A program made the position numbers and the translations under genes. From Salicibibacter cibi (GTDB taxonomy: Bacteria; Bacillota; Bacilli; Bacillales; Marinococcaceae): a stretch of 64,000 bases of DNA. The stretch spans positions 2,418,001 to 2,482,000 of the forward strand of contig NZ_CP054706.1 of the NCBI RefSeq assembly GCF_016495865.1, given 5' to 3'. Position 1 is the stretch's first letter. Each line of letters opens with the position of its first letter. The notes beneath the pieces are model-generated. The model was not told the origin of the DNA. It made no database searches and saw only the letters and a list, made by a program, of their open reading frames with translations. Positions 29,262 through 36,253 of this stretch are shown piece by piece.

Positions 29262-31670
<2,409 letters not shown>

Positions 31671-31823
31671 CGACTTTCGGCAAGGATGCCCCCACCTCTT
31701 AGCGTTAGCGTAGGTGGGGGAGGAATTGCCGTTGGCGTTAGCCAACTCCTTGCCTTCCTCCTTTCTAATTTAAATTTCACTAAATAATTGATATAATATG
31801 ATTAATGAAAGATGGTGAACCAT

Positions 31824-32942
31824 ATGAAGTTGACTTTGACGGCTAAGATCAAAATTATCCCTACATCAGAACAAGAAAATACCCTTCGTCAAACAGCTCA
31901 TGCTTATCGTGATGCCTGTAATAATGTTTCAGAAGTTGTATTCAACGAAAATACGTTGGTACAGGCTAAACTGCATAAATTAACGTACAAGGAACTACGT
32001 TCCACTTTTGGCTTGAAGTCACAAATGGCACAATCTGTGTTAAAAACGGTGATTGCAAAATACAAAACAACTAAGAGCAATGGGTATGAACGATCAAAAG
32101 TCCAATTTAAGAAACCGCAATTTGACTTGGTGTTTAACCGTGATTATTCTTTAACAAAAGGGTTGTTCTCCGTTAATACCCTTGCAGGGCGTATTAAAAT
32201 CCCTTTCCACACCAAAGGTCTTGAATCTTATTTCGATGGCACATGGACATTCGGAACAGCTAAATTGGTTAATAAATACGGAAATTGGTTCCTCCACATT
32301 CCTGTGTCAAAAGAGGTTGAAGAAACGAATCTCCACACCACCAATCAAGTTGTCGGGATTGATATGGGTGTCAATTTTACAGCCACAACGTTTGATTCAA
32401 AAGGGAAATCATGTTTCTTTAACGGTAAACAGATTAAACATAAACGTGCGAAGTATAAGCAAATGCGTAAAGAACTTCAAGAGAAGCAAACCCCTTCTGC
32501 CCGTAAACGATTAAAAGAAATCGGTCAACGAGAAAACCGTTGGATGCAAGACGTGAATCATTGTATCAGCAAGGCACTCGTTGATACTTACGGAAAAGAT
32601 ACGTTGTTTGTGATGGAAAATTTAACAGGTGTCCGTAACGCCACGGAAAAAGTGCGGGTGAAAGACCGTTATCAAACGGTATCATGGTCATTCTATGATC
32701 TTCGGCAAAAAATCGAATACAAAGCCCTGAAAAACGAGTCGTTAGGTATTGCTGTTGATCCGAAATACACGTCTCAAACGTGTCCGAAATGCGGTCACAC
32801 GGAAAAGGCGAACCGAAACAAAAAGACACATACATTTTGTTGTCAAACGTGCCGTTACACATCAAACGATGATCGTATTGGTGCGATGAATCTTCAACGA
32901 AAAGGAATTGAGTACATCGTTGAAGAAACTGCCCGAACATGA
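31824..32942 (+). CDS. tnpB: TnpB RNA-guided endonuclease (OrfB, IS605 family)
   Basis: 372 residues. The RuvC-like catalytic acids are all visible: D in VVGIDMGVNF (about residue 174), E in FVMENLTGV (about 275) and D in SNDDRIGAMN (about 350). The zinc finger CPKCGHTEKANRN...CCQTC lies between the last two. Family members form a complex with an omega RNA from the element's 3' end and cut targets next to a TAM. The N-terminus (MKLTLTAKIKIIPT) is intact, so the nuclease is probably active. Start 31824 fits the family; 31812 is the alternative. It lies opposite to the pyr genes. Confidence 0.92.
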   Translation: MKLTLTAKIKIIPTSEQENTLRQTAHAYRDACNNVSEVVFNENTLVQAKLHKLTYKELRSTFGLKSQMAQSVLKTVIAKYKTTKSNGYERSKVQFKKPQFDLVFNRDYSLTKGLFSVNTLAGRIKIPFHTKGLESYFDGTWTFGTAKLVNKYGNWFLHIPVSKEVEETNLHTTNQVVGIDMGVNFTATTFDSKGKSCFFNGKQIKHKRAKYKQMRKELQEKQTPSARKRLKEIGQRENRWMQDVNHCISKALVDTYGKDTLFVMENLTGVRNATEKVRVKDRYQTVSWSFYDLRQKIEYKALKNESLGIAVDPKYTSQTCPKCGHTEKANRNKKTHTFCCQTCRYTSNDDRIGAMNLQRKGIEYIVEETART

Positions 32943-33077
32943 TTCGGGTGGTTGGGTAGCTGTCAACCTGCCTGATGTGACACCACACTAAGATAGGAGG
33001 TCGCAAGACCGTTCGCACTATTGGGTCGTCACAAGCCCCCACTTCAAAATCTGTTAGGATTTAAGTGGTGGGTCGTT
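32800..33077 (+). ncRNA. Putative omega RNA (reRNA) scaffold at the tnpB 3' end
   Basis: By family precedent the guide RNA overlaps the tnpB 3' end and the right end and runs into flanking DNA, which becomes the guide. Here the region after the stop contains a GACCGTTCGCACTATTGGGTC hairpin-like segment (33006-33026) and the right-end stem at 33036-33073. The predicted guide would begin at 33078 (GACGCCTTCACCCC). Boundaries are inferred. Confidence 0.45.
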
Positions 33078-36000
33078 GACGCCTTCACCCCTTGAAGCGC
33101 CGGTACCGGTTCGGCGGCAAAAGACATCATTTCCAGCACGTGCAACAGTGCGAAAGCCGTGTCCATGGACGTTAAACAGACGATTTCATGTTCCACCGCT
33201 TCCCGGCGGATACGGAAACCGTCACGGGCGGGTTGCTTGCCTTTCGTTAAGGTGTTAATGACGAGTTGGGCGCCGCCGGATTGGATACGCTCGACGATGT
33301 TCGGAGAGCCTTCGCCGATTTTATGGACGCGTTCCGCATCGATGCCTCGTTCGTTTAAAAAGGCAGCCGTTCCTGCCGTTGCCATCACCTGAAACCCGAG
33401 GCGTTCAAAGCGGGCAGCGAGTTTTATCGCTTCTTCCTTGTCTTTATCGGCGATTGTGAACAGTACTCGCCCTTCACGGGGAATGTTCATGCCGGAAGCG
33501 ACCAATCCTTTATACAGCGCCTTTTCCAGCGTCAGATCCCGGCCTAGCACTTCGCCGGTTGATTTCATCTCCGGTCCGAGATGGATATCGACACGGCGAA
33601 GCTTCGTGAACGAAAAGACAGGCGCTTTTACAGCTACACGATCCGGTTCAGGCTGGATACGTTCATGATAGCCCAGCGCAGGCAATGTTTGCCCCAAAAT
33701 CACGTGAGTCGCAATCTGCGCCATCGGCACACCGGTCATTTTGCTTAAAAACGGCACTGTTCGGCTCGCGCGCGGGTTCACTTCAATGACGTACACGTCA
33801 TTTTCATAAAACACAAATTGAATATTTAAAAGCCCGATAATGTTTAACCCTGTGGCAAGCTTCTCGGTTTGGTCGATGACTTTTGCCTTCACCTGATCGG
33901 TGAGGGTTTGCGGAGGATACACGGCGATCGAGTCGCCGGAATGAACGCCCGCCCGTTCAATATGTTCCATCATGCCCGGGATAAAGACGTTTTTTCCGTC
34001 GGAGATGGCGTCGACTTCAATCTCTTTTCCGAAAAAGTAGCGGTCAATCAATACCGGATGCTCGGCGTGTACGTGAACGGCTTCCGCCATGTAGCGTTTA
34101 AGTTCTTGTTCATTCTCGACAATTTCCATCGCCCGCCCGCCGAGCACATAAGATGGGCGGACGAGGACCGGATATCCGAGAGTGACAGCGGCGTCAATCG
34201 CCCCCTCCACCGACGTGGCCGTTTTTCCCGGCGGCATCGGGACGTCCAATTTCCTTAGCGCCTGTTCAAACTTGTCTCGGTCTTCGGCGCGGTCCATATC
34301 TTCAAGGGAAGTTCCGAGAATGGGCACGCCCGCATCTGCCAGTTGTTCGGCAAGATTGATCGCCGTTTGTCCGCCGAATTGCACAACGACGCCTTCCGGC
34401 TGTTCATGATCGACGACATTCATGACTTCTTCGAAGGTGAGCGGTTCAAAATACAACTTATCGGAAACGCTGAAATCGGTTGAAACCGTCTCCGGATTAT
34501 TGTTCATAATAATCGATTCATAACCGGCTTCCTGGATCGCCCATACCGTATGGACGGTAGCATAGTCGAATTCAACGCCTTGTCCGATGCGAATCGGTCC
34601 GGACCCGAGGACGAGAACCGAAGGTTTACTGCTTTTTCTTGATTTATTTTCCCCTTTGTAGGTGCTGTAAAAATAAGGCATTTCCGCCGCGCGTCCATCC
34701 GAAAACGTGTCGACCTTTTTAAACGTTGAGACGATCTGGTTTTCTTTTCTGAAGCTGCGAAGACGCGCTTCGCTCGTATCCCAAAGTTTCGCGATTTGTT
34801 GATCGGAAAACCCGTTGCTTTTTGCCTCTTCCAGAATCGCTTCATCCCATGGGGCATCCGCGAGCTTTTCGTGCAAGCGCACGAGCGTTTCCATGTGCAA
34901 AAGGAAGAAACGGTCGATGGCGGTTGCGGCGTGAATGGCCTCGACGCTATAGCCGCGGCGAAAGCCTTCCGTGAGGGCGTAAAGCCGTTCATCATCGGCG
35001 GTCCGCCATTTTCCTTCCAACTCTTCATCGTTCATTTCCCGATAATCGTCGACGAGCAAGTGATTTTCTTTCGTATCGAGGGAACGAATGCCTTTTAAGA
35101 GCGATTCTCCGAATGTGCGGCCGATCGCCATGATTTCGCCGGTCGCTTTCATTTGCGTCCCGAGCTTGCGGTTGGCGGACGCGAATTTATCAAACGGCCA
35201 GCGCGGAATTTTTGTAACGATGTAATCAAGACTCGGTTCAACATTGGCTTGCAATTCTTCCAAATGATAGCCGATAGCGATCTTTGCCGCTACTTTCGCG
35301 ATCGGGTAGCCGGTTGCTTTGGACGCAAGGGCCGAGGAACGGCTCACGCGAGGATTCACTTCGATGACGTAGTAATCGTCGCTATCGGGCGCTTGGGCAA
35401 ACTGCACGTTACACCCGCCTTCGATGCCGAGGGCGCGCACGATCGTGAGCGAGGCTTCTCGAAGCCGTTGTTGATCACCGTCCCTTAACGTCTGACTCGG
35501 CGCGACAACGATCGAGTCGCCCGTGTGGACACCGACGGGATCGATATTTTCCATGTCACAGACGATCATCGCGTCGTCACTCGCATCGCGGATCACTTCG
35601 TACTCCATCTCTTTCATGCCGGCGATGCTTTTTTCAACGAGGCATTGGTGCACGGGGCTGTTTGCCAGTCCTGTTTCCAAGATTTCGCGAAATTGTCCCC
35701 ACGTATCGACGAGGCCGCCACCTGTGCCACCAAGCGTATAAGCCGGCCGGACGATCACCGGCAAACCGATTTTTTCCAGGAATGCCTCGCCCTCTTCGAG
35801 CGTATGCACGATGTCGCTGGCGGGTACGGGTTGGCCGAGTTTATACATTAATGACCGGAAGGCGTCGCGATCTTCTGCTTCGCGTATCGCTTCCAAATCC
35901 GTGCCGAGCAATTCGACGCCGAATTGTTCCAACACGCCTTCGCCATGCAATTCCATCGCCAAGTTCAACCCTGTCTGCCCGCCCATCGTGGCGATAACAC

Positions 36001-36253
36001 CGTCGGGGCGCTCCTGGCGAATGATGCGGCTAACAAATTCAAATGTCAGCGGTTCTATATAGACGCTGTCGGCCATGTTCGTATCCGTCATAATCGTCGC
36101 CGGGTTCGAATTGATCAGGACCGTTTCATAGCCTTCTTCTTTCAATGCCTGGCAAGCCTGCGTGCCGGAGTAATCAAATTCGGCCGCCTGTCCGATAATG
36201 ATCGGACCGGACCCGAGTACGAGCACTTTTTTGATATCATCGCGTTTTGGCAT
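33044..36253 (-). CDS. carB: Carbamoyl-phosphate synthase large subunit (3' end altered by the IS)
   Basis: 1,069 residues with two ATP-grasp synthetase halves ([21 protein letters not shown] near the start, [19 protein letters not shown] in mid-protein), the oligomerisation region, and a C-terminal MGS-like allosteric domain (about 930-1055). It makes carbamoyl phosphate with the glutaminase CarA, whose gene is not in this operon. The last ten residues ([10 protein letters not shown]) come from the IS right end; the native protein would have ended ...GVKAS. AAAGGAGATGAAGG precedes ATG 36253. Confidence 0.96.

Follow-up and report, generated by a model that had tools for sequence, protein, structure and literature searches.

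Copies without tnpA are known in the IS200/IS605 family, and we take IS1341-like to be the label for such TnpB elements. Retention of TnpB elements by RNA-guided cutting of the empty site was reportedly described by Meers in 2023. Gene drive and retention by TnpB likewise involve RNA-guided cutting of the empty site (PMC11870625). IStrons are related to IS200/IS605 and make their insertion harmless by group I self-splicing; 118 of 202 IStron insertions were intragenic (PMC4227781). For the T4 genes 25 and 38, RNA structures have been described that bring a distant SD to the AUG and shorten the gap from 27 to 11 and from 22 to 5 nt (PMC3014915).

The DNA analysed here (the window, 64,000 nucleotides, positions 2418001-2482000 of the 3.81-Mb genome G000) carries a tnpB element between carB and pyrK. 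It resembles IS200/IS605 TnpB elements without tnpA in its TnpB, in a TAM 5' of the left end, in the lack of a target duplication, in its structured right end and in a guide that equals the right flank. In contrast, an excess of start-codon insertions and an SD-bearing left end were seen here and not in the passages and entries among the matches listed. As in the two T4 genes, a far SD would be brought close by structure (here predicted), but the candidate described here resides on a mobile element and spans 86 nt. With IStrons it shares the kinship to IS200/IS605 and, in our proposal, the ability to render its own insertion harmless; group I self-splicing is used there, whereas the window element has no Rfam match. 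Cutting of the empty site would be the same as in the published account of TnpB retention, and there is nothing new in that part. A literature search, with most subscription papers outside its coverage, gave no description of start-codon or portable-RBS placement among the matches listed. The initial annotation of the insertion is largely right and describes something ordinary; the real news is the recurrent placement on start codons across the family. Neither this recurrence nor the SD of the left end was part of that annotation.

The element at the carB/pyrK junction

The following features were assigned at the junction:

30891..31670, minus strand: pyrK, 259 aa, intact, start codon abutting the element (PF10418; 229/259 amino acids identical to G001)
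31666..31670, plus strand: TAM TTCAT, complement of ATGAA at the pyrK start (sequence reading; empty site of G001; relatives)
31671..33080, plus strand: tnpB element with IS200/IS605-type ends and without tnpA (empty site of G001; right-end TTGAC in relatives)
31812..32942, plus strand: tnpB, 376 aa; the start used in relatives is the codon matching 31824 (Pfam PF01385 and PF07282; TnpB alignment; PDB kin)
32940..33080, plus strand: omega-RNA-like scaffold at the right end (compensated pairs in 12 aligned rows)
33044..36253, minus strand: carB, C-terminus lengthened by 11 element-encoded residues (ORF reading; comparison with G001)
33076..33080, plus strand: TTGAC right-end cleavage motif, shared by related elements
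33081..33100, plus strand: guide, complementary to the SD region of pyrK (20/20 bases as in the empty site of G001)

TTCAT occupies 31666-31670 and the element follows from 31671. Three genomes of the same genus (G001, G002, G003) are uninterrupted at the carB/pyrK junction, and the empty site of G001 consists of TTCAT plus GCCTTCACCCCTTGAAGCGC. Thus, the insertion proposed in the initial annotation was confirmed, but the right end, which had been set to 33077, lies three bases further on. The sequence of G001 across the junction is TTCATGCCTTCACCCCTTGAAGCGC, and GAC at 33078-33080 therefore belongs to the element. TTGAC is also the right terminus of the related elements L007 and L010 and of most others that were read, a few of which end with TTGAT or TTGAA; together with the empty site, this places the right end at 33080. 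The uninterrupted junction reads TTCATGCCTTCACCCC in G001 and not TTCATGACGCCTTCACCCC as predicted, an outcome that had been named in advance as refuting; it refutes the exact boundary but leaves the insertion standing. The expected ATGA overlap of carB and pyrK after removal of the element is actually present in G001, and both versions of the ends restore it since they differ by three bases. TTCAT left of the element is indeed the reverse complement of the pyrK start region ATGAA, and the element contains one tnpB and no second gene of tnpA size. Insertion 3' of a pentanucleotide, absence of a target duplication and palindromic subterminal ends are as in the IS200/IS605 family.

In TnpB, PF01385 and PF07282 score above their Pfam cut-offs, and the PDB kin of the protein are TnpB and Cas12f. 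Asp184, Glu269, Asp353 and Asp354, to which we presumptively assign the RuvC roles, are invariant in 7/7 alignment rows; the six relatives, which are 60-79% identical to the window TnpB, have the same RuvC acids, as the initial annotation had assumed for the window protein. Both the RuvC acids and a zinc-ribbon domain are present, as in TnpB of IS200/IS605. TldR is a TnpB-like protein that has lost the RuvC acids, and a TldR repressor was ruled out since the window TnpB keeps them.

A consensus fold of the 3' region among 12 relatives showed compensatory changes in 14 of 30 predicted pairs, and this covarying structure fits what would be expected for an omega RNA. TAM plus guide had been predicted to equal the empty site. 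This holds for a guide at 33081-33100 (20/20 bases, G001) and fails for one starting at 33078. Immediately past TTCAT, G002 and G003 carry a sequence unlike that of G001 and differ from the guide. A guide that matches its own empty site is general among TnpB elements and is not the special feature here. Retention by homing is plausible for this copy and fits the published TnpB model as ordinary behaviour. No Rfam match was obtained at E<=1 in 31600-33200, so that a group I intron as in IStrons was not found there. Neither the ORFs of the element nor G000 contain an intact Y1 TnpA: a Y1_Tnp survey of 12 genomes gave just two partial matches in G000. Since tnpA-less copies are known, the missing transposase limits mobility, not kinship, and with only two partial matches in its genome the window copy looks stranded. 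For G001, 23 Y1 transposase matches (fragments included) were counted.

Through the insertion, carB lost its own stop and reads 12 codons (11 residues plus stop) into the minus strand of the element. The native SD of pyrK, AAGGGGTG, lay in carB and is now located past the right end of the element, separated from the pyrK start at 31670, which adjoins the left end. Relative to G001, 47 codons of pyrK differ synonymously and 30 with a change of the amino acid, numbers that cannot date the insertion.

Left ends of related elements and their insertion sites

On the gene's strand, the left end of the window element carries the following parts:

31671..31678, minus strand: 8-nt tail from the stem to the pyrK AUG, GAAAGUCG in mRNA sense (left-end reading)
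31679..31686, minus strand: 3' arm of the outer stem, UCCUUGCC in mRNA sense (left-end comparison)
31747..31754, minus strand: 5' arm of the outer stem, GGCAAGGA in mRNA sense (left-end comparison)
31757..31764, minus strand: candidate portable SD AAAGGAGG facing pyrK (duplex energy -11.9)

Relatives were collected with a TnpB profile (E<=1e-100), which matched in 22/397 genomes of the order, 24/398 of the class, 9/398 of the phylum and 3/39 and 2/24 genomes of two families; these genome samples overlap. Named genome contigs contributed 8 and viral contigs 10 further loci. A search with a left-end pattern that includes one stem arm and excludes the TAM, the SD and the arm beside the SD gave 18 matches in 10/397 genomes. 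For the phylum and viral batch, the TAM was picked mostly blind to the flank, which was partly visible where a stretch contained several TTCAT. From 31 plasmid records we took three among the closest, of which L102 and L104 were scored and L103 had no readable left end. Starts were called by hand on the basis of ORFs and flanking sequence. L056 and L078, with frames of 132 and 110 aa without Pfam match, were scored as non-start. In total, 68 elements whose left end was readable were scored (67 plus L063, a non-start element without SD and stem), and the combined SD and stem criterion was defined when 49 elements had already been inspected.

Left ends that were lost, cut or not confidently readable were excluded (L037, L043, L044, L052, L053, L064, L066, L070, L072, L073, L085, L088, L090-L092, L095, L097, L100, L101, L103, L107, L115-L122), as were duplicates (L105 = L040, L112 = L041, L137-L139) and chance pattern matches inside genes (L132, L133). 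Four cases with a recognisable left end lacked TTCAT before it (L022/L047, L080, L135, L146); two of the four carry SD and stem, and all would be non-start. The closest phage record (H32) and L125-L129 (four plasmid loci and one phage locus, TnpB less than 50% identical) stayed outside the count. For L157 and L173, TnpA-bearing loci near similar right ends in G002/G003, the pattern scan gave no left end of this kind with TTCAT.

In 24 of these 68 insertions the element occupies the start codon of a gene on the opposite strand, and 44 copies are non-start. The first cases seen were a Ham1/RdgB-type gene, a secreted protein and an ABC ATPase (G000, G001) and tmk (G020). Named by Pfam match or by look, the start genes are pyrK, Ham1, a secreted protein, an ABC ATPase, Tmk, ATPase_gene1, VanZ-like, BioY, response regulator/SpoIIE, DUF350, pseudouridine synthase, Amj, another secreted protein, GTP_EFTU (PrfC-like), a histidine kinase, OppC_N, Radical_SAM/BATS (BioB-like), HTH_3, two unnamed membrane proteins, NosD-like, GH16, DsbB and TcaA-like. 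A Pfam match was found for 20/24 (14/16 of the first and 6/8 of the later cases), and L007, L076, L124 and L142 were called from ORF length and flanks. Where the right end was readable, start cases have a native SD just past it (median -7.8 kcal/mol in 12 elements against -3.0 kcal/mol in 29 elements; P 1e-5), and the result was the same with L076, L093 and L098 left out.

Many left ends have, on the gene's strand, an SD beside a stem that finishes 5-12 nt before the AUG. Among the first 16 start cases, 15 carry an SD (duplex energy <= -5.6) directly before a stem of 5-11 bp, the 3' arm of which ends 5-11 nt ahead of the AUG. In the whole set, 39/68 elements have SD and stem as defined; 22 of these 39 are at starts and 17 are not, vs 2/29 at starts among the others (Fisher 2.3e-5). 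The two start cases outside the definition are L124, whose shortened left end keeps just the SD, a hairpin of both arms and the tail, and L002, with extra DNA within the left end. Since any stem returned by the search has at least 5 pairs by design, the informative observations are that shuffled left ends satisfy the definition in 30/402 cases and that the arm sequences differ, the pairs changing together (GGCAAGGA/UCCUUGCC, GGUAAGGG/UCCUUACC, GCAUGGGG/UUCCAUGC, UCAGUGGA/UCCACUGA). On the TnpB tree (52 rows) the SD and stem label changes 15 times, and its carriers are thus not one clade. The hold-out elements alone gave 7/14 with SD and stem vs 1/4 without at starts, which is not significant (P 0.59), and neither is the comparison of phylogenetically independent pairs (about 4 the same way, 0 opposite; median P 0.125).

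As background we counted TTCAT in the window, with home-made gene calls and in this one genome: 263 sites, 9 of them at predicted starts and 49 at other non-coding positions. Elements with SD and stem exceed both background rates (9/263 and 9/58; 22/39 against 9/58, binomial P 5e-9). Ends without SD and stem were not significantly rarer at starts than this background (2/28 vs 9/58, P 0.17, before L063 was added).

Proposed mechanism and rival explanations

An IS200/IS605 element of the TnpB type has inserted 3' of TTCAT, precisely at the pyrK start codon, and we propose that its left end now serves this gene. The SD AAAGGAGG, the stem and the 8-nt tail stand in this order ahead of the same pyrK AUG. 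The left-end RNA would fold so that the SD reaches the AUG, with an effective gap of about 10 nt instead of 86, and pyrK would be transcribed by read-through of the operon. Such a portable split ribosome-binding site could make insertions at ATGAA start codons tolerable. If published TnpB work applies, TnpB and the right-end RNA would cut the empty site, which is here the RBS and start region of the host gene, and this would favour retention. Judged from the sequences, we consider this explanation as a whole somewhat probable. A broader reading, which we hold tentatively and with less than even confidence, is that in a TnpB lineage widespread in the phylum of the window the left end is a portable structure-bridged RBS, which completes an initiation region together with the TAM. 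The lineage could so colonise start codons, even of essential genes, and the guide would there address the RBS of the host gene, locking host translation to the element. If true, this would be a new route to transposon harmlessness, in which the host translation start is replaced rather than the element spliced out or genes avoided. It would also explain the TAM by its coding meaning and make the host dependent on a transposon end.

Structure prediction gave a mixed picture. The mean outer-stem probability for the window was 0.89 over 15 contexts. For a 142-nt window segment, the MFE fold buries the SD in UUCCUCC and the stem appears in the centroid only. One may speculate that these folds are in competition and perhaps form a switch. 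Among elements with SD and stem, the mean outer-stem probability was at least 0.5 in 11/22 start cases and equally often (9/17) in non-start cases. In the prediction for L124 the hairpin forms, but some bases of the SD are paired to the start of the gene.

The element might also be an ordinary one that reached start sites as tolerated TTCAT by chance, with an SD-like tract without any role. Because TTCAT is the complement of ATGAA, starts are available as targets and make up 9 of the 58 non-coding TTCAT in the window; most copies are non-start, and the hold-out and tree-aware tests lack significance. However, insertion at a start severs the native SD from the AUG, so that starts should rank among the worst non-coding sites, and yet elements with SD and stem are found there far more often than others. 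The tmk gene of G020 speaks against chance tolerance as well. Tmk is essential in other bacteria, and G020 has a single thymidylate kinase match genome-wide, with the element at its start, so that, given a correct assembly and an essential Tmk, translation survives there. We regard chance placement as rather unlikely. That the genes at the insertion sites have been silenced and just have not decayed so far appears very improbable. The OppC-like frame of L096, which stops mid-domain, would fit silencing; against it stand the Pfam matches of several start genes, which reach or nearly reach the model end (e.g., Ham1, Tmk, Amj, DUF350), the single tmk of G020 and the identity of PyrK to its G001 counterpart (229/259), though the codon differences cannot date the insertion.

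Two further explanations assign the left end a different task. The CCTCC tract is complementary to SDs and could serve tnpB by pairing with the tnpB SD in read-through RNA and blocking translation, and an inverted repeat of the TTTCACTAA/TTAGTGAAA type surrounds the tnpB promoter region. The lineages of L038 and L045, which have no CCTCC tract, still have this repeat, and a tract acting on tnpB leaves both the start-codon excess and the shortened left end of L124 unexplained, which makes this role improbable. Reading of the host gene as a fusion that starts inside the element is conceivable for the window, where an in-frame TTG at 31745 could yield a PyrK fusion. In 15/24 start cases, however, an in-frame stop codon separates the SD from the AUG; fusion proteins are thus not the general answer and were rejected as such, and we give this reading hardly any credence.

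Further copies and repeats

A second, decayed copy in G000 (L002/L005, 2902946-2903772) occupies the start codon of a Ham1/RdgB-like gene, and other DNA (about 300 bases) interrupts its left end. G211 has four left ends (L136, L142, L145, L147), each of them on a start codon; at three of the loci the sequence stops about 150-190 bases past the match to the pattern, probably because the contig ends there. L113 apparently inserted at codon 4 of a GTG-started gene and narrowly missed the start. The close relative L022 (G020:C12, 76% identical DNA) has TTCCGT at its left end in the place of TTCAT, which may be a changed TAM or a rearranged site. In the window, the inverted repeat at 31775-31811 around the tnpB promoter region (TTTCACTAA ... 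TTAATGAAA, one mismatch) is kept in several relatives and could prevent the translation of tnpB from read-through transcripts. Seven short matches, apparently right ends of other elements, had been left out of the collection (L025-L027, L031-L033, L035). Among them, L025, L026, L031 and L033 (G005, G007, G025) are short repeats that share the CCCCCACCTCTTAGC hairpin but end with GTAGTTCAA, and they appear to be the right ends of a further, related family of elements.
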